A stretch of 64,000 nucleotides of DNA from Thermoproteota archaeon (GTDB lineage: Archaea > Thermoproteota > Thermoprotei_A > EX4484-217-1): NCBI GenBank assembly GCA_029258915.1, contig JAPDJU010000012.1:1-64000 (forward strand), written 5' to 3'. This document shows, piece after piece, positions 15,082-35,783 of this stretch (position 1 is its first letter; every line of letters begins with the position of its first letter). Made by a program: the position numbers and the translations under genes. The notes below the pieces were generated by a model. That model saw nothing but the letters and a program-made list of their open reading frames with translations, was not told where the DNA came from and did not search any database.

Positions 15082-15582
15082 CTATTGGAGTAAAGTGCTG
15101 AGAACCTTTACTAATATATCTGCTGTTCTTTTAACATCGCTAGTCATGGGAGATCCGAAACTTATATCGCTTACCTGAATACCTAATAAGTACTGTTCAG
15201 CTTTAGGTAACATATACTCTAGGTATCTGCGAAGCATAGAATATGATGGTTTATGAGTTGTAGGGAAAACTACTTCCAGTTCTTCTATTTCCTTTAAAGA
15301 ACCAAAGACCAGGAAACCAGGGTTTAAACCTGCCTTTACGGCGTCTATGAAAACCACCACCTCTGGTCTAGCATTTACAGCTACGCCCAGAAAACTTTCA
15401 GGTGAAAGCCCAGCATCAACAACATTATTTAGCCCTCTTAACCTAAGATTACTAGCAACATATGAGCCAACATAATCATCTCCTCGGAGATCATTACCTA
15501 CACCTATAATGAATACCTTTCTACCTGAAAGAACCTTAACTATGCTATCTTTAACTTCGCTGAAACTTCCTAAAACAAACAT
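15082..15582 (-). CDS. Hydrogenase maturation endopeptidase (HycI/HyaD family)
   Basis: FIIGVGNDLRGDDYVGSYVA; directly follows the hydrogenase genes. Confidence 0.88.
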   Translation of the reverse strand: MFVLGSFSEVKDSIVKVLSGRKVFIIGVGNDLRGDDYVGSYVASNLRLRGLNNVVDAGLSPESFLGVAVNARPEVVVFIDAVKAGLNPGFLVFGSLKEIEELEVVFPTTHKPSYSMLRRYLEYMLPKAEQYLLGIQVSDISFGSPMTSDVKRTADILVKVLSTLLQ

Positions 15583-15621
15583 TATAGCTAAACCTTCAAG
15601 AAAGTAAAATTAGAAGTAAAC

Positions 15622-16503
15622 TTATTTTTTGCTTTTTCTCCTGCGTAATGGTGGCGGTAAATCCGGTAGGAATTTTATAGCATCTACTGGACATGCTTCA
15701 TAGCATTGTCCGCAAAAGAGACACTTATTGATATTGTATATTGGTAAAAGTCTTCCACCAATATCTTTCATTGTTATTGCTTCTGTAGGGCAGACCCTAG
15801 CACATAAGGTACATCCAGTACATATGTTTCTATCTATTTGAATAGTTCTATACCTTAGTAAACCTGCTTTCTCCAGCGGAGATTCCGGTATTTTCTCCGG
15901 TATTTTCTCTACTTTCTCAGGGAACTTCACTAATGGTGAAATTGCTTCAGAGGAACAAATTTCAACACATTTATGGCAGAAAACACATAAATCAACATCG
16001 TAAGATGGAATCACCCTACCATCCTTAATAACCATGGTTATCGCGTGAGTTGGGCAAACAGCTGCGCAAAGCTCGCACTCAACACATTTAGAATAATCTA
16101 TCTTCATGTACCTTATCTTTTCTAGACCCGCTAAAACATACGGTGCTATAGGTACTTTAGGTAATCCCTCATACGCAGACTTCTTTGCTGAGGAAAGCTC
16201 AAATTCGGTCGATGAAACTATTGCGTTTGTTGGGCAATTATATATACATTCATAGCAGAAACAGCATCTACTTACATCATACCATGGCACGGATCTTCCA
16301 TCAGTCCATTTAAGCTTAATTGCGAAAGTAGGGCATACGTCTTCACAAACACCGCATTCAACACATCTATTCCATAAAAATACTGGTTTACCCCTAAACC
16401 CTTCAGCTATTACTGGTTTTTCAAAGGGATATTTGTGTGTTGCTGGTTTCTTAAATAAGTAACTAAAAACTTCAGCTATTAGGGAGGGTATTTTCTTACC
16501 CAT
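15622..16503 (-). CDS. Polyferredoxin with six [4Fe-4S] motifs, MbhN-like
   Basis: Six CxxCxxC...CP-type motifs arranged as three tandem 2x[4Fe-4S] units (sixth Cys of one motif followed by S). Confidence 0.92.
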   Translation of the reverse strand: MGKKIPSLIAEVFSYLFKKPATHKYPFEKPVIAEGFRGKPVFLWNRCVECGVCEDVCPTFAIKLKWTDGRSVPWYDVSRCCFCYECIYNCPTNAIVSSTEFELSSAKKSAYEGLPKVPIAPYVLAGLEKIRYMKIDYSKCVECELCAAVCPTHAITMVIKDGRVIPSYDVDLCVFCHKCVEICSSEAISPLVKFPEKVEKIPEKIPESPLEKAGLLRYRTIQIDRNICTGCTLCARVCPTEAITMKDIGGRLLPIYNINKCLFCGQCYEACPVDAIKFLPDLPPPLRRRKSKK

Positions 16504-16506
16504 CCC

Positions 16507-17670
16507 CTACCTCCTCCAATATTTCTTCTTAATTTCACCTATGGTCATGGTTTTTCTTGTTCCCGATTTAGCATCTAAAAGCATTACTGTTGTTCTATCG
16601 GTACATGCGAAACATGGGTCTATGCTTCCTAGGATAACTGGGATATCTGCTACATGGTAGCCCTTGAACATTTCGCAAACTCCAGGTATGTTTGCATATG
16701 TTGGCGTTCTAACCCTGTGCCTCCAAGGAGTTACTCCACCTCTCCATATGGTGTGATGTAGCACTTCTCCCCTAGGAGCTTCAACTCTACCTTCTCCCTT
16801 ACCCTCAATAGTCCTTGGAACTTTAGTACATATTGGGCCTTGAGGTAAGTGGTCTAATGCATACAATATTATGTTTATTAGTTCTAAACATTCATCAACT
16901 CTGACCATGTATCTTGCCCAACTATCTCCTTCCTTATATGTTATGACTTTGAAAGGTATTTCATCATAAGCCTCGTATGGATCAGTATATCTTAGATCTA
17001 TTTTTACTCCAGAACCCCTAATTGTTGGACCTACCGCGCCTAACGCTAGTAGCTTGGATCCACTAATATATCCTACGTCCATAGTTCTAGTGGTGAAAGT
17101 TGGGTCCTCGCTTAAGACCTTTTTATATCTTTCAATTCTCTTGTAAAGCTTAGGCAGCTTATCCTTCATCTTATCAACAAGCGCTGGAGAAATGTCTCTT
17201 GTAACACCTCCAACTCTTACATATGCGGATATTACTCTATTACCTGTAAGTTCCTCAAACAAGCTCATTACTAGTTCTCTGTCTCTCCAAAACAGCATAA
17301 ATAGCGTTTCAAAACCCATTAGCTCTGCTGCAACACCTAGTAAGAGTAAGTGGCTGTGTAACCTATTAAGTTCATGAGCAATTACTCTCAAATACTTCGC
17401 TCTTGGAGGAACTTCAACATCTGCTGCTTGCTCAACTGCTTCGGCAAAACAGAGAGTATGGGCTACATTACAAATACCACAAATTCTTTCAGCAAGATAT
17501 AGTCCTTCAATGAACGTTTTTGTTTCCATAAGCTTCTCTATTCCCCTATGCATATAGCCTATTCTAGGTATAACATCTATAACGGTCTCACCCTCAACTT
17601 TAAAGAGGAACCTTTCTGCTTCATGCAATGCCGGGTGCTGAGGACCTACAATTAAGCTTATTGCTGGCAC
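16507..17670 (-). CDS. [NiFe]-hydrogenase large subunit, group 4 (MbhL/Ech-like)
   Basis: Both Ni-ligand motifs intact: RICGICNVAH and DPCFACTDR. Confidence 0.93.
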   Translation of the reverse strand: MPAISLIVGPQHPALHEAERFLFKVEGETVIDVIPRIGYMHRGIEKLMETKTFIEGLYLAERICGICNVAHTLCFAEAVEQAADVEVPPRAKYLRVIAHELNRLHSHLLLLGVAAELMGFETLFMLFWRDRELVMSLFEELTGNRVISAYVRVGGVTRDISPALVDKMKDKLPKLYKRIERYKKVLSEDPTFTTRTMDVGYISGSKLLALGAVGPTIRGSGVKIDLRYTDPYEAYDEIPFKVITYKEGDSWARYMVRVDECLELINIILYALDHLPQGPICTKVPRTIEGKGEGRVEAPRGEVLHHTIWRGGVTPWRHRVRTPTYANIPGVCEMFKGYHVADIPVILGSIDPCFACTDRTTVMLLDAKSGTRKTMTIGEIKKKYWRR

Positions 17671-17672
17671 TT

Positions 17673-18194
17673 CTACCTCACCTTTTTAATCTTCTTTATC
17701 AGCTTAATCTCCTTTCTAAGAGGATAAATGTTGTCAGGCCATTCTTCGGGAAGAAATACTTTCCCCAAAGCCGGATGCCCTACAAACCTTACGCCAAACA
17801 TTTCATAATTTTCACACTCATATAGGAGTGCCCCGGGTACTATGTCTGTTATGGTTTCAACTTCAGGGTTTGCCCGGGGAATATTCATTTTAAGTGTTAA
17901 ATGTAGTTTAAAATCGTCTTCTGCTAACTGTATCTCATACTGTAACTCAAAATATTCTTTATCAATATAATCCACCGTGTTTATTGTTACTAAATATGAG
18001 GATTCGGCGAATTGGTTCCTAAGCCATTTAATTATCTGCTTATGTGAATTACGTACTATTTTTAACTCGGCACGAGTGGGGGTAAGAACTTTAACGCTTA
18101 ATATCTTATCCTTAAACTCTCTCCTTAGCTCTTCTAAGAACTTGGAAACTTTTTCCGGAACTTTTTTTACCTTACTTTCTACCGCCATTTCCAC
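17673..18194 (-). CDS. NuoC/MbhK-like 30-kDa-type subunit
   Basis: CENYEMFGVRFVGHPALGKVFLPEEWPDNIYPLRKE. Confidence 0.85.
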   Translation of the reverse strand: MEMAVESKVKKVPEKVSKFLEELRREFKDKILSVKVLTPTRAELKIVRNSHKQIIKWLRNQFAESSYLVTINTVDYIDKEYFELQYEIQLAEDDFKLHLTLKMNIPRANPEVETITDIVPGALLYECENYEMFGVRFVGHPALGKVFLPEEWPDNIYPLRKEIKLIKKIKKVR

Positions 18195-18612
18195 CGCCCT
18201 TAATCTTCTTTATCAAAGTAACTATACCGTGAATTATTGCTTCGGGTCTTGGAGGACATCCAGGAATATAAACATCAACAGGGATTACTCTGTCAACTCC
18301 CTCATATACGAAGGGCGATCCTTGAAATACATTACCATTTACTGCACATGTTCCAACGGCAATGACGAATTTTGGCTCAGGCATTTGCTCATAAATTCTC
18401 TTTAACCTTCTAGCTACTTGTTTAGATACTGCACCTGTAACTATCAGTATGTCTACATGTCTAGGAGATGGTTTAAGTAGTATTCCGAAACGTTCAACAT
18501 CATATCTTGGAGTTAATGCTGCTAGAACTTCGATATCGCATCCATTACATCCGGGAGATGGGAAATGTAGAATCCATGGAGATTTTATTCTTGCCCACTG
18601 AACAATTCCCAT
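18172..18612 (-). CDS. [NiFe]-hydrogenase small subunit (MbhJ-like)
   Basis: PGCNGCDIE, GTCAVNGN, PGCPPRPEAI proximal-cluster cysteines. Confidence 0.93.
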   Translation of the reverse strand: MGIVQWARIKSPWILHFPSPGCNGCDIEVLAALTPRYDVERFGILLKPSPRHVDILIVTGAVSKQVARRLKRIYEQMPEPKFVIAVGTCAVNGNVFQGSPFVYEGVDRVIPVDVYIPGCPPRPEAIIHGIVTLIKKIKGGGNGGRK

Positions 18613-18871
18613 AACTCAGCCTCCTCACTGGAAGAGTTTCCTTGTTCATCTAGGTTATTGGGTCTATATTAAATAAGATACTCTATAGTAGAAGTATATA
18701 GATAACATAGGAAGGTAATGAATTAAACCATTTAGGCTAAATAGTAAATTCTTCACATTATCATTGCTGACCTCCTTCATATTCTACTATAAGTTATTTT
18801 TATTTATACATGCTAGGAAAAGGGTTATACGAACTTCAAGTGATGATAAAGACTGGTTAAGGGAAATTCTG

Positions 18872-19156
18872 ATGGCTTTAGAAAATTTCATATCTACGTT
18901 CATAGTCGTGTTACTGCCAGCATTTCTAATATCCTTAAGCTTATACGCTATAAGAGTAATTAAAGGTCCTTCAGTAACCGATATGGTTTTAGCTATTGAC
19001 TGTATAACCTATGATCTATGTTTTCTTATGGGGCTACTTTCGATACTTTTCAAAATAGGCTTCCTAATGGTTGCAGCTTTGGCCTTGGCCTTATGGGCTT
19101 ACGTTTTAGATGTTTACGTAGCTAAGTATTTAGAAGCAAGAGAGGTTGGAGATTAA
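18872..19156 (+). CDS. MrpF/MnhF-like antiporter subunit
   Basis: VIKGPSVTDMVLAIDCITYDL; ATG 18872 with upstream AAGGGA preferred over track start 18764. Confidence 0.85.
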   Translation: MALENFISTFIVVLLPAFLISLSLYAIRVIKGPSVTDMVLAIDCITYDLCFLMGLLSILFKIGFLMVAALALALWAYVLDVYVAKYLEAREVGD

Positions 19157-19554
19157 TGTTCATATTTCCTGAGCTAAACCCATTAGAAGAGATAGCTTTA
19201 ATCATAGGGATAATCTTAACGTTAATTGGTGTATTCTGCGATATTGTTGGATCTATCGGTATGGTTAGGTTTCCTAATTTCTTTGTTAGGCTTCATGCTG
19301 CAACAGTAGGAACAATAGGAGGAGCAGTTTACCCACTGTTTGGCATTACACTTATGTCTCTTGCTCTAAACTACTTAGGTGTGATGAGATACTTCATAGC
19401 CACTGGAGCTTTTCTTACAGCTATAGCTATTGTCTTAACAGCTCCTGTGGGTTCCCACGCTCTTGCTAGAGCAGCTCATAGATCCAAAACTGTTCCCGTA
19501 GAACCTAAGGTTTGTGATTTTCTAAAAGAAGATGAGAGGCTGATTGAAGAATGA
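19156..19554 (+). CDS. MrpG/MnhG-like antiporter subunit
   Basis: GSIGMVRFPNFFVRLHAATVGTIGG. Confidence 0.9.
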   Translation: MFIFPELNPLEEIALIIGIILTLIGVFCDIVGSIGMVRFPNFFVRLHAATVGTIGGAVYPLFGITLMSLALNYLGVMRYFIATGAFLTAIAIVLTAPVGSHALARAAHRSKTVPVEPKVCDFLKEDERLIEE

Positions 19555-19814
19555 TTGAAGCAACGTTAATTGCTGAAATACTCTTAGCTTTTTCACTTAC
19601 GCTAGCCTTAATCTTCGCCTACCTTGCTATTAGGGAAAGAGATTTAATTAAGGCAATAGTGTTCTCAGCATTACAGTCTGTTGCCTTCGCCTACGCTTAC
19701 TACCTGTTGTTTGCTCCAGACATAGTGTTAGCATACATCGCCGTTGGTGTTGGTATTTATTCGATACTGTTAATTTATGGTGTAAGTAAAACCGAAAGGT
19801 ATGAAGAGGTGTAA
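19551..19814 (+). CDS. MbhD-like (DUF4040) subunit
   Basis: DLIKAIVFSALQSVAFAYAYYLLFAPDIVLAYIAVGVG. Confidence 0.85.
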   Translation: MIEATLIAEILLAFSLTLALIFAYLAIRERDLIKAIVFSALQSVAFAYAYYLLFAPDIVLAYIAVGVGIYSILLIYGVSKTERYEEV

Positions 19815-19816
19815 TT

Positions 19817-20644
19817 ATGGTTATTAGTAAGGTAAGACCTCGTAGTGAAATAATTATAGGTTTAGGCGTAGCATTACTGCTTGTACTTACATTATTTGCT
19901 GTTATTGCTGGAGCTACAGGGTTTACACCTAAAGAGGATATTAGGCCTCTAGCTAAGTTCTATCTCTATTATGCAATTAACTGGTATGAGAAGAAATTCT
20001 GGGCAGCAAGTCCTGAAGCAGTAAACTCTATGGTCTGGGACTATAGAGGTTACGATACACTGTACGAAACCTCAGTATTCTTCCTAGCCATTATAGGCGC
20101 TATAGCTGTTTTTAGAATACCCGGCGTTAAAGACGTTTTCTCCAAGGGAATTTTAAGCGGTAGAGGCTTATCACTTATAGTTAAAACAATAACTAAACTT
20201 GTAATAGCCTTTGTACTTATAGTTTCAATAGCAATAGCTGTTCATGGAAACTTAACACCTGGAGGAGGCTTCCAGGCCGGATCAGCAATATCAATAGCGA
20301 CCCTTTTAGCAATCGCAGCTTTCTCAAGAATATTCTTAGAAGAAAGAAAAATTACAACAAAACTTATGCTGCCTATCAGAGTTTTAGGAGTTTTAGGTAT
20401 AGGATTACTTGCCCTAGGTCCAGCATTAATTGCTTTAAGCGGTATAATGTCCTTTGTTATTCAAAACCAACCTAAACCATGGGCTGACTGGGGATTTATA
20501 CCTGGAGTAGGACCATTCTGGCTCTCTGGAAACCAATTCTTCTACAACTTCTTTGAATTCGTAGCTGTAGGAGCCGGATTTACTGTTATTTACTTGATAT
20601 TCTCAATACCTGAACTAATTTACAAGAGGGTGTTGAAAAAATGA
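19817..20644 (+). CDS. MbhE/F - MrpB-like subunit
   Basis: VHGNLTPGGGFQAGSAISIATLLAIAA; N-terminal MbhE-like region. Confidence 0.87.
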   Translation: MVISKVRPRSEIIIGLGVALLLVLTLFAVIAGATGFTPKEDIRPLAKFYLYYAINWYEKKFWAASPEAVNSMVWDYRGYDTLYETSVFFLAIIGAIAVFRIPGVKDVFSKGILSGRGLSLIVKTITKLVIAFVLIVSIAIAVHGNLTPGGGFQAGSAISIATLLAIAAFSRIFLEERKITTKLMLPIRVLGVLGIGLLALGPALIALSGIMSFVIQNQPKPWADWGFIPGVGPFWLSGNQFFYNFFEFVAVGAGFTVIYLIFSIPELIYKRVLKK

Positions 20645-21036
20645 CAAGCATAGTATCCCAGGCTCTGTGGATTTATTTCTACATAACGCTAATAGGCTTA
20701 ATTGCAATTGCCGTTTACGGTATTGTTGTCAGACCTAATTTGTTAAAGAAGATAATTGCTTTATCTATTTTAGGAGATACTGCAAACACGTTTATAATAT
20801 TCTTAGGCTTTAGAAGAGGAGGAGCTGCTGTACCTATAATTCCAACTATTAAACCCACACTAGAAGAGTTATTGTGGTTTAAAGAAACAGCTGTTGACCC
20901 GTTACCTCAATGCTTAGTTATAACTGCAATCGTTATCAACATGTCTGTTACAGCATTTCTAATAGCTTTAGCCATCCAGCTTTACAGGCTTTACGGAACT
21001 CTTGATGTTAGAAAAGCAGTTAGGCTAAGAGGGTGA
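20641..21036 (+). CDS. MrpC/NuoK-like subunit
   Basis: GIVVRPNLLKKIIALSILGDTANTFIIFLG, DPLPQCLVITAIVIN. Confidence 0.88.
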   Translation: MTSIVSQALWIYFYITLIGLIAIAVYGIVVRPNLLKKIIALSILGDTANTFIIFLGFRRGGAAVPIIPTIKPTLEELLWFKETAVDPLPQCLVITAIVINMSVTAFLIALAIQLYRLYGTLDVRKAVRLRG

Positions 21037-21042
21037 AGAACA

Positions 21043-21558
21043 GTGGGTGTTTTAGAAAGAACACTTAAAATAGTTGCCGTAGCAGTAATGTTGTTTGCAG
21101 TTTTCATAATAGCCTCGGCCAGTGTGGCACCGCAAGACATAATTTACGGTATCATATTCTCCATTGCTGTTGCAGTTGTCGTTTCAGAACTTCTAATAGC
21201 CAAGCATACTAAACCATATGATATTAAGAGATGGTTTTGGACAATAGCTTATACTTTCTACTACTTCATAGTTGCAGAGTATAAGGCTCACTCAGATGTT
21301 ATAATGAGAATACTTCATCCTAAAATGCCTATTAAACCAGGTATTGTTAGAGTTCCTTTCCATGTTAATACAGACTATGCTATAGTTACAATTGCGAATT
21401 CAATAACAAATACTCCTGGTACAGTTGTCGTAGATCTGGATACAAAGAGAAAATACTTTTATGTCCACTGGATTAACGTTAAAGCACCTGATGAAAAAAC
21501 AACTTTTGAAAATATTTCTAAGATGTTTGAATATTTTGCTAAAAGAATATTTGACTAG
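21043..21558 (+). CDS. MrpE/MnhE-like subunit
   Basis: Two N-terminal TM helices; NSITNTPGTVVVDLD. Confidence 0.87.
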   Translation: MGVLERTLKIVAVAVMLFAVFIIASASVAPQDIIYGIIFSIAVAVVVSELLIAKHTKPYDIKRWFWTIAYTFYYFIVAEYKAHSDVIMRILHPKMPIKPGIVRVPFHVNTDYAIVTIANSITNTPGTVVVDLDTKRKYFYVHWINVKAPDEKTTFENISKMFEYFAKRIFD

Positions 21559-21568
21559 GTGATGATGG

Positions 21569-23176
21569 ATGGAAATATATCCTCCACTACCTCCAATAAT
21601 GATACACTCATTAGCTCTAGCACCAGTAACAGCTATAGTATCTGCTTTCGCAATGCCACTAATAGGTTTAACAATTAAGAATAGGAAAGTATGGGATGCT
21701 TTTGCATTAACGATATCAACAATTGTTTTCATACTTACAGGAATAGGCTATGCTACGGTTCGGTATTTAGGTAAGCCGTTTGTATACTTGCTTGGAGGAT
21801 GGCCACCACCTGTAGGTATAGTTTACGAGGTTGATGAGTTTGCTGCACTCTTAGGCCTTGTTTCAGCCTTCATTATATGGTTAGTGGTAATTTACGGTGT
21901 AAAATACTTTGATTCAAACGAGGATGGCATGGAATGGTACTATACGATGCTTTTAGGATTAGAAGCAGGTGTTCTAGGGTGCATATATACTGGCGACGTA
22001 TTCAACGTATTCGTACTTTTTGAAGTACTTTCAATAACATCCTACGGTTTAGTAGCCTTTTGGAATAGAAGAGGAGAATGTATTGAAGCTGCTATAAAGT
22101 ATTCGCTTATAGGTGCTTTAGCTACAACAATATACTTCCTAGCTGTAACATTCATTTACGCTTCTCTTGGAACATTAAACATGGCGGATATTGCAGCTAA
22201 AATAAGAGGTTTATTCTTCCCGGTAACAGGTGAACCTTATGGAAGCATAGCTTTAGGTGTTGGCTTATTCTTAGCATTGTCTATATGGGCTTTTACCGTT
22301 GAAGCAGGTGTAGCACCGAATCACTTTAGAGTTCTTGACGCATATCAGGTTTCACCATCAACAGTGGCTGCATTGCTTTCAGCAGTGGCTGCTAATGTAG
22401 GATTCTATCTATTAGCAAGGTATTTGATAACTCTTCTAAGTGGAGCTAGAGCAGTTGAAACAATAGTTAATGCCGGATTATTAATAGTACTTATCATGGG
22501 TTTAGTTTCAATAATTGTAGGGTCGTTCTTAATGATTGTTCAGTCTGATGTTAATAGAATTTTAGCTTACAGTTCAGTATTAAACTATGGTTATGTGTGT
22601 TTAGCTATAGGATTAGCTACGCCTTTAGGTATTATAGCAGCGCTATTTCACATGATAAACCATGCTGTAGCTAAAACGCTTATATTCTTAACAGCAGGAG
22701 TTTACGTTAAAGCTTCTGGAACAAGGCGTCTGGACGGAATGGAGGGTGTTGGAAGGTATGCTCCTATTACATCAGCTCTAATGGTTATAGCAGCATTAGC
22801 TTTAGCAGGTGTTCCACCTTTCAACGGTTTTGTAAGTAAGCTAATACTCTATGAAGCCCTTCTAGAAGTTAACCTAGCCCCGCTAGTTATAATAATAGTT
22901 TTATCAAGTGCACTATCACTCTTAGGCTATTTGAAAATAATTTACCATGCATACACTAAACCCCCGATGAAAGACTATGGTAAAGTTGAACCTCCAAAGG
23001 CAATGCTTTGGCCTATGATTATTCTTGCGGCTCTATGTATAATCTTAGGTGTCGCATCCCCCTGGATATACGATATGTTCATAGAGCCTGCAGCACATAC
23101 TATTTTTGAAACCGATAAGTTTATAGAAGTAGCTTACGAATTCGCTGAAAAACTACTCATAGGTGTTAGGATATGA
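21569..23176 (+). CDS. MrpD/NuoN-like proton-translocating antiporter subunit
   Basis: GLEAGVLGCIYTGDVFNVFVLFEVLSI, FHMINHAVAKTLIFLTAG. Confidence 0.92.
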   Translation: MEIYPPLPPIMIHSLALAPVTAIVSAFAMPLIGLTIKNRKVWDAFALTISTIVFILTGIGYATVRYLGKPFVYLLGGWPPPVGIVYEVDEFAALLGLVSAFIIWLVVIYGVKYFDSNEDGMEWYYTMLLGLEAGVLGCIYTGDVFNVFVLFEVLSITSYGLVAFWNRRGECIEAAIKYSLIGALATTIYFLAVTFIYASLGTLNMADIAAKIRGLFFPVTGEPYGSIALGVGLFLALSIWAFTVEAGVAPNHFRVLDAYQVSPSTVAALLSAVAANVGFYLLARYLITLLSGARAVETIVNAGLLIVLIMGLVSIIVGSFLMIVQSDVNRILAYSSVLNYGYVCLAIGLATPLGIIAALFHMINHAVAKTLIFLTAGVYVKASGTRRLDGMEGVGRYAPITSALMVIAALALAGVPPFNGFVSKLILYEALLEVNLAPLVIIIVLSSALSLLGYLKIIYHAYTKPPMKDYGKVEPPKAMLWPMIILAALCIILGVASPWIYDMFIEPAAHTIFETDKFIEVAYEFAEKLLIGVRI

Positions 23177-23520
23177 GCCTGCTTATGGTTGTTTTAGAAA
23201 CCGCAGTTTCAATGTTTATAGTAACATTGTTAGCCTATGGACTCTACCTTTACTCAGTAAAGGTAACTAAAAGTTTTTCCAGGAAAACTAGGGAGAAAGT
23301 TCTTATCTATGCGTGTGGCGAAGACATTACCGAAAAAGAGGCACTTTTAGCAGATAGGCATTTATTTACAACGATCTGGAATGAAGTTTTCAAGCCACTA
23401 TATGATTCTCTTAGAGGGAAAGTACATACGGGAATACTTAATGACTGGTTTTTCTGGATGTTCCTAGCTTTAATCATAGCTTACACTATAATAATTGTGT
23501 TAGGTGGTGTAAGTGGCTAA
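23173..23520 (+). CDS. MbhI-like small membrane subunit
   Basis: Two TM helices around KVLIYACGEDITEK; between MrpD-like and NuoH-like genes. Confidence 0.72.
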   Translation: MSLLMVVLETAVSMFIVTLLAYGLYLYSVKVTKSFSRKTREKVLIYACGEDITEKEALLADRHLFTTIWNEVFKPLYDSLRGKVHTGILNDWFFWMFLALIIAYTIIIVLGGVSG

Positions 23521-24502
23521 CGGAATATTTGAAACGCTAATGCTGGTAGGAGAGACGTTAATCTATCCTGGAGCAGTATTCTCTTTCATAGTTGCAATAT
23601 TTACTCAGTGGTTTAGAAGAAAAGCTTACGCTAGAATGCAGAATAGAATGGGTCCAACATATACAGGTCTTGCAGGAACACTACAGCCTTTCGCAGACTA
23701 CGTTAAATTATTCTTTAAAGAGGACATAGTTATTATTAGAGGCTACGCTAAATTACCAGCATTCCTGCTCGCATTAGCAATAGGTGCCCTAATAGCGATA
23801 CTTTTAATGTTACCCATATCCCCGTATAGTGTTTATGCACCGTACGATATTATAGTAGCAGCATATTTGCTAATATGGCCAACACTAACCCTTGCCGCTC
23901 TGGGATTCCTAACACCAAGCCCCTATGGTGCTTTAGGTTCTTCAAGACTACTTACATTAACAATAGCATATGAAGTAGCTTTCCTAATTTCAATACTAAC
24001 ACCCGTAGTTCTAGCTAATAGAATACTTGGAGCACAATACTCACTATACCTCTCATCAATTTACAGTTGGCTACTATGGACAAACCCCGTATTAATACCG
24101 TTAATTATAATATCACTACTTACCGCATTAATTTCATTGCAATGTAAACTACTAGAGAAGCCATTCGATATTCCAGAAGCAGAACAAGAAATAGTTGCAG
24201 GGCCTTTCACAGAGTATTCAGGGCCAAAATTAGCATTCATAATATTCATTCACGATATCGAACAATACGTAAACTCGCTGATCATAGTATTCTTATTCCT
24301 AGGTGGTGTAGCACCCTTCGTGGAAGGCCCATTATGGGCTCAAATACTAGTAGTTGCTATTAAGTATATTGTTGTAGTTCTTGTTCTAACATGGATTAAA
24401 GCTATGGTAGCAAGGTTTAGAGTAGATCAAGCAATAAAAATGCTATGGAAATACATAGTACCTTTATCACTATTCGCATTAATAGTTTCCACAGTAATAT
24501 AG
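23513..24502 (+). CDS. NuoH/MbhM-like membrane anchor subunit
   Basis: RMQNRMGPTYTGLAGTLQPFADYVKLFFKE, PFDIPEAEQEIVAGPFTEYSG. Confidence 0.93.
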   Translation: MANGIFETLMLVGETLIYPGAVFSFIVAIFTQWFRRKAYARMQNRMGPTYTGLAGTLQPFADYVKLFFKEDIVIIRGYAKLPAFLLALAIGALIAILLMLPISPYSVYAPYDIIVAAYLLIWPTLTLAALGFLTPSPYGALGSSRLLTLTIAYEVAFLISILTPVVLANRILGAQYSLYLSSIYSWLLWTNPVLIPLIIISLLTALISLQCKLLEKPFDIPEAEQEIVAGPFTEYSGPKLAFIIFIHDIEQYVNSLIIVFLFLGGVAPFVEGPLWAQILVVAIKYIVVVLVLTWIKAMVARFRVDQAIKMLWKYIVPLSLFALIVSTVI

Positions 24503-24678
24503 AGGTGTCAGCTTAATACACAGTTTAAATATCTATTCACTTCCTATCCTTCCTCAAACCTCTACATAGCGATGGAATTTCTTGTAATTAAAATAGAGGT
24601 ATATGGTGTTTTATTGAAGGCAAAGTTATTTAAACACCGTTAAATATTTTAAATACTGTCAAAGATAGGTGAGTATTT

Positions 24679-25176
24679 ATGGAGATAGAGGATTTACTTA
24701 AATACCTTGTTGAACATTTTAATGCTAAAATCAGTATCGAGAAAGATAGGAACTTTGTATTAGCTAGAGTTGATAAATACTCCTACGTTAATGTAGCAGA
24801 GTTTTTGTTCAAAGAAGGATTTAGAAGATTGCTAACAGTTTCAGCTATCGATTGGCTTTCGAGAAACGTTATTGAAATATACTTTATCACGTATAACCAT
24901 GTTATGAACGTCTATGTTAAAGTTTCAACAGAAATACCTAGAGATTTCCCGGAAATACCTTCTTTATCAAGTATGTGGGAAAATGCTGCTATGCATGAAA
25001 GAGAAGTGTGGGAGCTTTTCGGTGTTTCGTTTATAGGGAATAAGATGCTTAAGCCATTATTCCTAGAAAACTGGAAAGGTCCTCCACCTTTCAGAAAGGG
25101 TTTTGACTGGAGAGAGTATGTCGTTAAGGAATACGGTTTAAAATATCCTCCAGTACCTAAAACTGTTTATCAATAA
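24679..25176 (+). CDS. Second NuoC-like 30-kDa-type subunit
   Basis: HEREVWELFGVSFIGNKMLKPLFLENWKGPPPFRKGFDWREYV. Confidence 0.88.
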   Translation: MEIEDLLKYLVEHFNAKISIEKDRNFVLARVDKYSYVNVAEFLFKEGFRRLLTVSAIDWLSRNVIEIYFITYNHVMNVYVKVSTEIPRDFPEIPSLSSMWENAAMHEREVWELFGVSFIGNKMLKPLFLENWKGPPPFRKGFDWREYVVKEYGLKYPPVPKTVYQ

Positions 25177-25203: not shown

Positions 25204-27213
25204 GTGAAAATAAGTAATATATTTAAACCTTTCAAAACTGTAGGTAAGTTTCTAGTGGAAAAACCTTTGACATTCCACTTCCCACCTGAATCCCCAGTAT
25301 TTACTGAAAGATTTAGGGGAAGACACATATATCATCCTGAGCTTTGTATAGAGTGCAAACTTTGCGGTATAGTATGTCCGAATAATGCCATAGATTTCCT
25401 ATTTGAAAAGGATGAAAAAGGTTTAGTTCATTTTAGAACTCAAGTAGACTATGCTAAATGCTGCTTCTGCGGGCTATGCGAAGACGTATGTCCCACTAAA
25501 GCACTAGAAATGACTAATTTCCCATTTCTTGTAGCTATGGATAAAAAAGAGCTATATTATAGCTGGAAAAAACTTTCTGAAAAACCCTCACTCACCCTTC
25601 CCTCAATAAAAGAAAGAAAAGGGCTAATACCATGGGCTAGAGCTAGAAGCTTCTGGATAGTAAACTACTTTACGGGATGCTGTTTCATAGAAGCTGTACC
25701 CTGGGTTGCAAGTAGCTTCGACATGGAGAGATTTGGTCTCTTAGCTACAGCATCGCCGAGACATTCTGATGTCCTTCTTATAGGAGGCTATGTTACACCT
25801 AAAACTCTTAAAAGAATAATCAGAATATATTCTCAAATGCCAAAGCCAAAGTTCGTTTTAGTTCTTGGAAATTGCCCCATGACCGGTGGAACATATTGGG
25901 ACAGCTACAATACTATCAAGGAACTTGATAAATACATTCCAGTAGATCTCTGGATAGCTGGATGTCCTCCAAGAGTTGAAAACGTAGGATACGCCATATT
26001 CTTAGCTATATGGGCTGTTCAGCATGGATATACTGGTAAGGAGGAATACGTAAATACTGAGCATGGAAAATACGCTTTGCCCTATGTAGTACCTAAAATA
26101 AATAAGGACTATAACATCGTAGAGTTTGGTCCACAACACCCTGCAAGCGGGAATTTCAACATACTTCTTAAGCTTAAAGGGGAGCGCGTAGTAGAGGCAA
26201 CGCCCAATGTCGGATACTTACATAGAGGGTTTGAGAAGCTTATGGAGTATAGAACATGGTGTCAAAACATAATGATAGTTCAAAGAGTTTGTGTACTAGA
26301 TGGTGCATCATATGAACTAGCATACGTTGGTGCAGTAGAGAAGATTGCCGGTTTAGAAGTTCCAGAAAGAGCTAAATATTTACGTGTTATTCAAGCAGAG
26401 CTTAGTAGAATTCAAAGCCACTTACTCAACCTAGGACTATTAGCTGCATCTGCAGGATTCGATACAATAACCAGAATAACGTGGGGCGATAGGGACAAAA
26501 TACTTTACCCACTAGAATACATGACCAGAGGAAGAGTATATCAAATATACAATATTCCAGGCGGTGTAAGATACGATATCCCACTAGATTTCGTAGATAA
26601 GGCTTTTGAAGTAATAAAGTACATGGAGAAGAGACTTAAAATATACGATGACCTACTATTTAACAACCAAGTATTTATAGATAGAACAAAGAACATAGGT
26701 AAATTACCTAAAGAAATGGCTATAGAGCTTGATGTAACAGGCCCGAACATGAGAGCTTCAGGCATAGATTTTGATGTTCGAAGAAATGTTCCTTATGAAG
26801 CATATAAAGACGTTGATTTTAAAGTTCAAGTTCTACAAGACGGAGACGTATACTCTAGAGCCCTATGTAGAAGAAGAGAAATAGAGGAGAGCCTTCACAT
26901 AATAAAGCAAGCTATAGGTAAATTGCCTAAAGGTCCTATAGCCGAGAGGAAAATGTCTAGAGGAGGATATTTCTCATTTATGTCTTCTATACCTACTGGA
27001 GAAGCAATACATTGTGTCGAAAGCGCTAGAGGAGAACTCTGCTTCCACATAGTGAGTACAGGCGGGGTTAAGCCTTACAGAGTTAAAATTAGAGGGCCAA
27101 CATTTGACACTATACTTGTAGCGTTACCTAAATTATTGAAAGGCGTTCAAGTGGCTGACGTACCAGTAATATATTGGAGCTTAGATAATTGCCCGGCAGA
27201 TCATGACAGGTAA
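25204..27213 (+). CDS. NuoI-NuoB-NuoD-like fusion protein (ferredoxin + small + large subunit, Mbx/complex-I-like)
   Basis: Uninterrupted 669-aa ORF: 2x[4Fe-4S], then TGCCFIE...GNCPMTG...AGCPPR, then PQHPASGN...QRVCVLD...DNCPADHDR. Confidence 0.93.
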   Translation: MKISNIFKPFKTVGKFLVEKPLTFHFPPESPVFTERFRGRHIYHPELCIECKLCGIVCPNNAIDFLFEKDEKGLVHFRTQVDYAKCCFCGLCEDVCPTKALEMTNFPFLVAMDKKELYYSWKKLSEKPSLTLPSIKERKGLIPWARARSFWIVNYFTGCCFIEAVPWVASSFDMERFGLLATASPRHSDVLLIGGYVTPKTLKRIIRIYSQMPKPKFVLVLGNCPMTGGTYWDSYNTIKELDKYIPVDLWIAGCPPRVENVGYAIFLAIWAVQHGYTGKEEYVNTEHGKYALPYVVPKINKDYNIVEFGPQHPASGNFNILLKLKGERVVEATPNVGYLHRGFEKLMEYRTWCQNIMIVQRVCVLDGASYELAYVGAVEKIAGLEVPERAKYLRVIQAELSRIQSHLLNLGLLAASAGFDTITRITWGDRDKILYPLEYMTRGRVYQIYNIPGGVRYDIPLDFVDKAFEVIKYMEKRLKIYDDLLFNNQVFIDRTKNIGKLPKEMAIELDVTGPNMRASGIDFDVRRNVPYEAYKDVDFKVQVLQDGDVYSRALCRRREIEESLHIIKQAIGKLPKGPIAERKMSRGGYFSFMSSIPTGEAIHCVESARGELCFHIVSTGGVKPYRVKIRGPTFDTILVALPKLLKGVQVADVPVIYWSLDNCPADHDR

Positions 27214-31709: not shown

Positions 31710-31935
31710 ATGGCCACTATAACTGTTAGAATAAGTCCTGAAGTTAAAAAGCTTATGAAAAAGTATAGGTATATTAATTGGAGTGAAGTTGTACGAGAAG
31801 CAATTTTAAATAAGATTCACGAAGAAGAGAAAAAACCTTGCAGAGGCTCTTCTGATTAATGAAAAATTACGAAGAAGTGGTCCCAAAAACTGGGATTCTG
31901 CAGAGGTTATTAAGAAATGGAGGAGACTAAGATAG
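31710..31935 (+). pseudogene. VapB-type antitoxin, frameshifted (absent from ORF track)
   Basis: ATG 31710: MATITVRISPEVKKLMKKYRYINWSEVVREAILNKIHEEEKK, shift in A6 tract at 31830-31835, then NLAEALLINEKLRRSGPKNWDSAEVIKKWRRLR ending at 31935. Confidence 0.85.
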
Positions 31936-32336
31936 TTTTAGATGCCAGTATTATTGTGAAATGGTTTCTTAAAGAACTATACAGTGAAGAAGCTATAAGG
32001 ATAAGAAACGATTATGTTCAAAGAAAAGTAAGCATTGCAGTTCCTTCTCTTCTAATATATGAAGTACTAAACGCTTTAAAGTACAGTGACATATATTCTG
32101 AAGAAGAGTTGAAAGAAATATGTTTAGCACTCAATAAGTACGGTTTCGAAATACATGATCTTGAAGAAGATCTAAAGGATAAAGCTATCACGATAGCATA
32201 TAAGTATAATATTACGGTATATTATGCAAGCTATATAGCATTAGCAATGAAACTTAAAACAGTACTCTACACAGCTGATAATGAATTATTAGAGAGGTTC
32301 CCGAAAATAGCAAGGCACGTAAAGGAATATAGCTGA
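31917..32336 (+). CDS. VapC-like PIN-domain protein, possibly inactive
   Basis: VLDASIIVKWF, YEVLNAL, TADNELL present, but third acidic motif reads YYASYIALA instead of the usual YDASY. Confidence 0.85.
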   Translation: MEETKIVLDASIIVKWFLKELYSEEAIRIRNDYVQRKVSIAVPSLLIYEVLNALKYSDIYSEEELKEICLALNKYGFEIHDLEEDLKDKAITIAYKYNITVYYASYIALAMKLKTVLYTADNELLERFPKIARHVKEYS

Positions 32337-34523: not shown

Positions 34524-35783
34524 TTGAGGTTGAAGCTTGTGCGTAAAGCTGCGATAGCATTTGTGATCTTAGTGTTAATGGTTGCTGCATTTGCAATATT
34601 TGTTTTGCCGCTTAGACTATTAAATCAGTTAATGCCATCTCCTGTTAAGGCTAGGGAAATTGCAGTTCCCGAATTAACTAGTAGAATGAATAACTTTACC
34701 CTTAAACTCTATGGTGAATTGTTGAGAGATAATTGGAAGAGAAATATTGTGGTTTCACCTTTCAACGCATATATAGCGCTGACCCTACTATACGAGGGCA
34801 CTAACGGAACTACTAGAACTGAAATAGGTGAGGTACTAGGTCTTATAGGCGTCGATCCATGTAATGCATATCAGCAACTCCTAGACTCACTTCCTCTAAA
34901 CATGGATGACAATACAACACTCATAATTACAAATGCAGTTTGGCTTAGAGAAGGATTCTCGTTCAAAACAAAATACATAGAAACGGTAAGGAAATATTAC
35001 AAGGCAGAGGTCAAGTATTTCAATAATGTACCTCAACTTGTTACAGAAGTTAACAGTTGGGTTAGCAAGAAGACTAGAGGACTCATAAAGAATATTTTAA
35101 ATCCAAACGATGTTAGCGAAAATGTCGTAGCAGTTCTAGTATCGGCCATTTACTTTAAAGGAGAATGGGTTGAGAAGTTTAAGCCTATAGGACCTTTCAA
35201 ATTCTGGGCTGGGGAAGAGTATGTTAACGCTCCTGGAATGGAGGTAATAAGCGACGTTATAAAAGTTGTGCATGGCGCAGATTATACTGCAGTAGAAATA
35301 CCCTACAAGAATATAAACATTACAATGGTTATAATAATGCCTGAAAAGTACACCGACATACCCAGTAAGTATGAGGAATTAATTTTGGATGCTTTAAGAA
35401 GGCTAAATAGGGCTAATACCAGGAAAACCGTATGGCTGACTATGCCGAAATTCAACATATCGCTTAAAACAAATATGGTTAATCATCTCCAAAATATGGG
35501 GATAGTAGAGGTATTTACACCCGGCAAAGCAGATTTAACCAGAATGGCTAACGTAAGAGTAGGGGAAATATGGGCTGATAAGATTATACACCAAGCAGTA
35601 ATCAAAGTGAATGAGGAAGGCACTGAAGCAGCAGCTACTACCGTTATTGTTATTGTAAGAGGACCCCTCCAAGCAGACGAAAAAGTAGTAGTAAACAAAC
35701 CATTCATATACGTACTTCGAGATAAGGAAACTAACACAATACTATTCATAGGACATATCATAAACCCTATTGAATCTGAGTAG
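34524..35783 (+). CDS. Serpin with N-terminal membrane anchor/signal
   Basis: NIVVSPFNAYIALTLLYEGTNG, LVSAIYFKGEW, hinge NEEGTEAAATTVIVIV, NKPFIYVLRDKETNTILFIGHIINP. Confidence 0.94.
   Translation: MRLKLVRKAAIAFVILVLMVAAFAIFVLPLRLLNQLMPSPVKAREIAVPELTSRMNNFTLKLYGELLRDNWKRNIVVSPFNAYIALTLLYEGTNGTTRTEIGEVLGLIGVDPCNAYQQLLDSLPLNMDDNTTLIITNAVWLREGFSFKTKYIETVRKYYKAEVKYFNNVPQLVTEVNSWVSKKTRGLIKNILNPNDVSENVVAVLVSAIYFKGEWVEKFKPIGPFKFWAGEEYVNAPGMEVISDVIKVVHGADYTAVEIPYKNINITMVIIMPEKYTDIPSKYEELILDALRRLNRANTRKTVWLTMPKFNISLKTNMVNHLQNMGIVEVFTPGKADLTRMANVRVGEIWADKIIHQAVIKVNEEGTEAAATTVIVIVRGPLQADEKVVVNKPFIYVLRDKETNTILFIGHIINPIESE

Follow-up and report, generated by a model that had tools for sequence, protein, structure and literature searches.

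A NuoI-NuoB-NuoD fusion in TACK and Asgard archaea with half of a former Ni site: a candidate non-hydrogenase head for a hydrogenase membrane arm

In the accepted account of the complex I superfamily, hydrogenase (MBH) lost its Ni ligands one step at a time, first giving MBS and then complex I, and MBS has a special cluster with three Cys. The window analysed here is a stretch of 64,000 nucleotides from a Thermoproteota archaeon (GenBank assembly GCA_029258915.1, contig JAPDJU010000012.1, positions 1 to 64,000). It encodes a large subunit in which both CxxC motifs of the Ni site have become CxxD. Does this symmetric pattern mark a different metal or substrate site, and what kind of enzyme carries it?

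The large subunit is part of a longer chain, called here the fused head. Its open reading frame starts with GTG at 25204 and ends with the stop codon at 27211-27213. NCBIfam models match it in the order NuoI (residues 12-123), NuoB (137-267) and NuoD (306-669). The closest PDB structures are P. furiosus MbsL (6u8y_L, E 3e-91) and MbsJ (6u8y_J, E 3e-46). The features of the protein are as follows.

25204..27213 (+): fused MbsN/NuoI - MbsJ/NuoB - MbsL/NuoD protein, 669 aa (ORF; NuoI, NuoB and NuoD models)
25345..25493 (+): NuoI-like domain, two [4Fe-4S] ligand sets, C48-C58 and C86-C96; nine Cys, all kept in 21 of 21 orthologues
25678..25683 (+): NuoB-like domain, tandem Cys C159-C160 (FTGCCFIE), a complex I-type proximal cluster motif; 21 of 21 orthologues
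25873..25965 (+): NuoB-like domain, the other proximal-cluster Cys, C224 (GNCP) and C254 (GCPP); 21 of 21 orthologues
26128..26157 (+): NuoD part, beta1-beta2 loop GPQHPASGNF, residues 309-318, with Asn as in Mbs
26284..26301 (+): motif 1, RVCVLD, residues 361-366, former L1 Ni site with C363 and D366 (ORF translation, alignment)
27184..27201 (+): motif 2, DNCPAD, residues 661-666, former L2 Ni site with C663 and D666 (ORF translation, alignment)

Positions 26281-27213 cover the part of the NuoD/MbsL domain that runs from motif 1 through the stop. The translation of the 669-residue frame confirms the motifs as given in the preliminary description: RxCGxC is replaced by RVCVLD and DPCxxC by DNCPAD, so that each keeps its first Cys and has Asp at the second position. 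The motifs and domain models also bear out that the large subunit is fused, is of the Mbx/Mbs kind and has lost Ni ligands. As two of the four Ni-ligand Cys remain, the protein is predicted to have no Ni site. Motif 2 is followed by HDR and the stop; the C-terminus is thus ..DHDR, with no extension. An AlphaFold model from 18 sequences has a pLDDT of 59.8 overall and below 50 around both motifs.

All large subunits found were aligned to place the CxxD/CxxD pattern. True hydrogenases, including the three other large subunits of the window genome, have R[IV]CGIC/DPCxxC. MbsL of P. furiosus has RICVPE/DNCPPD, which is CxxE/CxxD. An Mbs-type subunit from the same family as the window genome (L017/L049) has RVCVPD/DNCPPD, and Mbs-type large subunits of ten more Thermoproteota genomes have R[FIV]CVED/DPCxPD; both are CxxD/CxxD. 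Archaeal NuoD of the quinone type has acids at both places but no Cys (for example RMAIHD/DYFPPE). The suggestion that CxxD/CxxD could mark a different metal or substrate site is therefore not borne out, since ordinary Thermoproteota Mbs-type subunits show it too; the pattern comes close to being simply the standard Mbx/Mbs one. The Mbs and NuoD sequences in the alignment indicate that acids at the second positions are a general trait of Ni-free archaeal members and not new ligands.

The distinctive trait lies elsewhere in the same chain, in its NuoB-like part, on which the preliminary description is silent. At the proximal site, the fused head has CC, Mbs has CTGCGG or CSACGA (CxxC-G) and hydrogenases have CNGC (CxxC). 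The beta1-beta2 loop has Asn in both the fused head and Mbs, His in archaeal NuoD and Glu in hydrogenases. At the position of Nqo4 Y87 the fused head has Val instead of Tyr; archaeal NuoD likewise lacks the Tyr.

There are 21 orthologues with the NuoI-NuoB-NuoD fusion. They are 58-67% identical to the window protein, or 95% within the genus. Every one of the 21 keeps D366, and 20 of them keep C363. The alignment shows a readable C-terminus for 18; all of these keep D666, and 17 keep C663. The motifs are not due to chance or assembly error, because they are conserved across the orthologues. The sole exception is the orthologue of genome G594 (L091:5122-7134), which has RINVLD/DNAPAD. Both Cys are gone together and both Asp are retained; judging from its motifs, it is a natural double mutant.

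The fusion spans TACK and Asgard archaea and is present in about 20 sampled archaeal genomes. Carriers include Thermoproteota (three of the window's order, and G263), Hecatellales, Bathyarchaeota, Baldrarchaeota, Lokiarchaeota, one Heimdallarchaeota bin and other Asgard genomes. Few sampled genomes have the fusion: 3 of 397 in the window's phylum and 13 of 227 in the Asgard phylum. Fusions known in complex I are CD and BCD (PMC12361115), and those on record for archaeal complex I are BC and BCD (PMC11237513). No description of a NuoI-B-D fusion or its clade was found in the openly accessible literature searched. Two loci are irregular. In G512 (L094:646-2655) a single in-frame TAA breaks the fused gene into parts of 447 and 215 aa, through either assembly error or decay. 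Contig C270 of the Baldrarchaeota bin G061 (L015/L138) has a C-terminal fragment of a second fused head, either a second copy or contamination; its closest reference is the Asgard genome G612.

The concatenated NuoB and NuoD tree recovers the fused-head clade with support of 100/100 and joins it to Mbs with 99/97; grouping with archaeal Nuo is rejected (p-AU 0.0036). In the single-gene trees the clade is monophyletic (100/99 for both NuoD and NuoB) and has Mbs as its sister (96/93 for NuoD, 99/95 for NuoB). Single-gene AU tests do not reject kinship with archaeal Nuo/complex I (p-AU 0.287 for NuoB and 0.112 for NuoD). On the concatenated tree, whose root is uncertain, the fused-head clade is placed as the sister of Mbs.

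The genes upstream of the fused head in the window encode a membrane arm and a second head.

15082..18612 (-): divergent [NiFe] hydrogenase head with NuoB, NuoC, large subunit, polyferredoxin and maturation protease (models)
18764..21558 (+): Mrp-type small subunits among the membrane arm ORFs: MrpF, MrpG, an 87-aa protein, MrpB-like, MrpC and MrpE
21569..23520 (+): single MrpD-like antiporter (535 aa) and a 115-aa membrane protein at the MbhI position (PDB matches)
23513..24502 (+): NuoH/MbhM-like membrane anchor (models, sequence comparison)
24503..24678 (+): 176-nt gap with TTTAAA boxes between the NuoH and NuoC genes, possibly a separate promoter (sequence)
24679..25176 (+): NuoC/MbsK-like subunit, partner of the fused head (NuoC models)

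The NuoC gene is the next gene upstream of the fused-head gene, and the two adjoin in all 20 loci examined. The 176-nt gap is similar in the same-genus genome G001 and may hold a promoter for NuoC. The antiporter is nearer to that of MBH (6cfw_H, 250 bits) than to that of MBS (6u8y_H, 206 bits). The 115-aa protein gave no usable match in the PDB; the lone weak one, with E about 1, is a chance match. The divergent [NiFe] large subunit has ERICGIC/DPCFAC and a 28-residue tail beyond DPCFACTDR, and its closest match is MbhL (6cfw_L). Its operon has no NuoH of its own. Both the window and G001 have one MBH-like membrane arm (18764-24502 in the window) between two heads, and the divergent [NiFe] head also appears to need this arm. 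On the simplest reading, the window would encode an MBH with its head genes oriented away from the arm, plus a second, non-hydrogenase head behind its own promoter.

Most copies of the module have no such arm beside them. Membrane genes of the superfamily are absent near the NuoC and NuoI-B-D pair in 17 of the 20 loci examined; about ten of these isolated loci are flanked on each side by 2.5 kb or more, the others lie nearer a contig end on one side, and several have less than 1 kb on one side of the module. Membrane genes adjoin the pair in the window, whose arrangement is common to G001, and in two Lokiarchaeota, which have a full NuoA-H-J-J-K-L-M-C-IBD operon. NuoH was counted by PF00146 and large subunits by the FpoD model. 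The number of NuoH equals that of non-fused large subunits in 16 of the 18 genomes other than Lokiarchaeota, most genomes compared being metagenome bins whose gene counts depend on completeness. In these 16, NuoH is thus matched one-for-one by other large subunits, and none is left over for the fused head. The two genomes that depart from this are G062, which has one NuoH too many, and G064, a 0.6-Mb bin that has none. In G003 (98% complete) and G263 (95%) there is just one NuoH, and it lies in a [NiFe] hydrogenase operon on another contig. The window genome conforms, with three NuoH, three NiFe subunits and one fused head. Non-fused large subunits are of [NiFe] types, apart from a quinone-type subunit in G611, another in G612 and, in G067, one weak match left unclassified. 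Group 4 [NiFe] hydrogenases co-occur with the fused head in every genome examined except two Lokiarchaeota.

Three sets of known enzymes are related to the fused head, and each differs from it. It resembles P. furiosus MBS (6U8Y) in its two leftover Ni-site Cys followed by acids, in its loop Asn and in a C-terminus that ends at the motif-2 Arg. In MBS, however, the genes are separate, three Cys ligate the proximal cluster at a CxxC-G site, and the enzyme has its own MbsM along with two antiporters, H and H'; the fused head has one 535-aa antiporter in the window and usually no arm of its own. With complex I, Fpo and archaeal Nuo it has in common the tandem CC of the NuoB part and, with archaeal NuoD, acids at the second-Cys positions. 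The quinone-site residues of complex I NuoD are a loop His and a Tyr, Nqo4 H38 and Y87. Unlike complex I and archaeal Nuo, the fused head retains two Ni-site Cys, has Asn in place of the loop His and lacks the Tyr equivalent to Y87. It has the superfamily fold of the group 4 [NiFe] enzymes MBH and Hfo (PMC7886697) and, in the window, an MBH-like arm; MBH and Hfo have four intact Ni ligands and a C-terminal maturation tail, whereas the fused head has two ligands and no tail.

By these features the protein would be none of the three: neither a [NiFe] hydrogenase, for which it lacks the full set of four Ni-ligand Cys and the C-terminal extension, nor MBS in the strict sense, as the three-Cys site, the H/H' arm and the separate genes are all missing, nor complex I, given the absent quinone-site residues and the two retained Ni-site Cys. 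Closer in kind is Ehr, including the proposed FDH-Ehr (PMC6349859), which is hydrogenase-related and has no Ni site; formate dehydrogenase genes adjoin the fused head in three Asgard genomes. Ehr has been described with Mrp-like subunits (PMC6349859), while most fused heads have none nearby. On sequence grounds, the fused head is best classed with hydrogenase-related (Ehr-type) heads, as a lineage of its own whose sister is MBS.

We favour, as somewhat probable, a non-hydrogenase head that oxidises ferredoxin and docks on a hydrogenase membrane arm; the docking, substrate, cofactors and ion pumping are what we infer. The peripheral arm in the window would consist of NuoC and the NuoI-NuoB-NuoD fusion, a member of the complex I/group 4 hydrogenase superfamily. 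Reduced ferredoxin would donate electrons to the two clusters of the NuoI type, which would relay them to a proximal cluster of the NuoB type (C159, C160, C224, C254); these clusters are assigned because the Cys are conserved and from homology. The proximal cluster would face the former Ni-Fe cavity, with two leftover Cys, two Asp and no bound Ni, and electrons would reach the acceptor from this cluster and not from a metal bound between the CxxD motifs. Because of the Mbs kinship and the loop Asn, a sulfane or disulfide seems a more likely acceptor than protons or quinone. Open-iron chemistry has been proposed for MBS; it may not apply here, as the tandem CC implies that four Cys hold the cluster. 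The fused head lacks the maturation-protease tail found on the neighbouring NiFe subunit, which counts for a non-hydrogenase head. It would be an alternative to the head of the group 4 [NiFe] hydrogenase in the same cell and would dock on that enzyme's arm, giving one ion pump with two acceptors.

More tentatively, and with rather less than even confidence, NuoC and NuoI-B-D may be an exchangeable second head that competes with or replaces the [NiFe] head on a shared NuoH-antiporter arm. If so, one ion pump would switch between H2 formation and another reduction, and the clade would record a step between hydrogenase and complex I at which the proximal cluster was already of the complex I type while half of the former Ni site remained.

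A soluble enzyme would likewise be without a NuoH of its own, which argues against docking on a shared arm. In most genomes the module could be a soluble ferredoxin-dependent oxidoreductase that has come away from the membrane and may supply a formate dehydrogenase or an F420 module. In most loci no NuoH or antiporter is near the module and none is spare in the genome, as such an enzyme would have it. The NuoC and NuoI-B-D pair has FlpD, a molybdopterin formate-dehydrogenase-type subunit and FrhB/FdhB as immediate neighbours in three Asgard genomes:

L092:7210-10906: FlpD-FdhA-FrhB set beside the module
L093:7838-11535: FlpD-FdhA-FrhB set beside the module
L091:599-4306: FlpD-FdhA-FrhB set beside the module

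In those three genomes the electron partner may instead be formate or F420. Beside isolated modules in general, this set is the only acceptor enzyme that recurs; other neighbours are unrelated. However, the GPQHPASGNF loop, through which MBS, MBH and complex I touch their membrane subunit, is kept whether or not a copy has membrane genes beside it. In the large-subunit tree, the Lokiarchaeota copies that belong to a full membrane operon branch from within a set of isolated copies, and in the window the module adjoins NuoH. A soluble module is on balance unlikely, if still worth serious consideration.

It is quite improbable that the fused head is an ordinary MBS, a sulfane reductase with trivial changes. 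The nearest solved structures are MbsL and MbsJ and Mbs is the sister clade, but a complex I-type CC replaces the three-Cys site held to define MBS catalysis, the I-B-D fusion is present, the window arm is MBH-like with a single antiporter, and most genomes have no arm for the head. A catalytic site in which the two Cys and two Asp of the CxxD/CxxD cavity bind another metal (for example Fe or Zn) would explain why all four are nearly invariant in the clade and would fit the paired loss of Cys in G594, but it is highly improbable: ordinary Mbs shows the same pattern, the P. furiosus C85A/C385A double mutant indicates that Mbs catalysis needs neither Cys (PMC7684303), archaeal NuoD has the Asp without Cys, and G594 retains the gene without Cys.

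The fused-head clade splits the steps of the accepted account, as one protein has lost Ni ligands in the manner of Mbs and yet carries a cluster of the complex I type. On the concatenated tree, with its uncertain rooting, the three-Cys site may be a later specialty of MBS instead of a general intermediate. A head without an arm alongside a group 4 hydrogenase in nearly all carriers would make such pumps modular at the protein level.

The window has some other features. The ferredoxin subunit of the [NiFe] head (15622-16503, -) is a three-repeat polyferredoxin of 293 aa and not of the short MbhN type. A PIN-domain-like protein of the VapC type is encoded at 31917-32336 (+), as judged by eye. 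At 34524-35783 (+) there is a gene for a 419-aa serpin-like protein, also judged by eye, with an N-terminal membrane anchor; such a protein is unusual for an archaeon.
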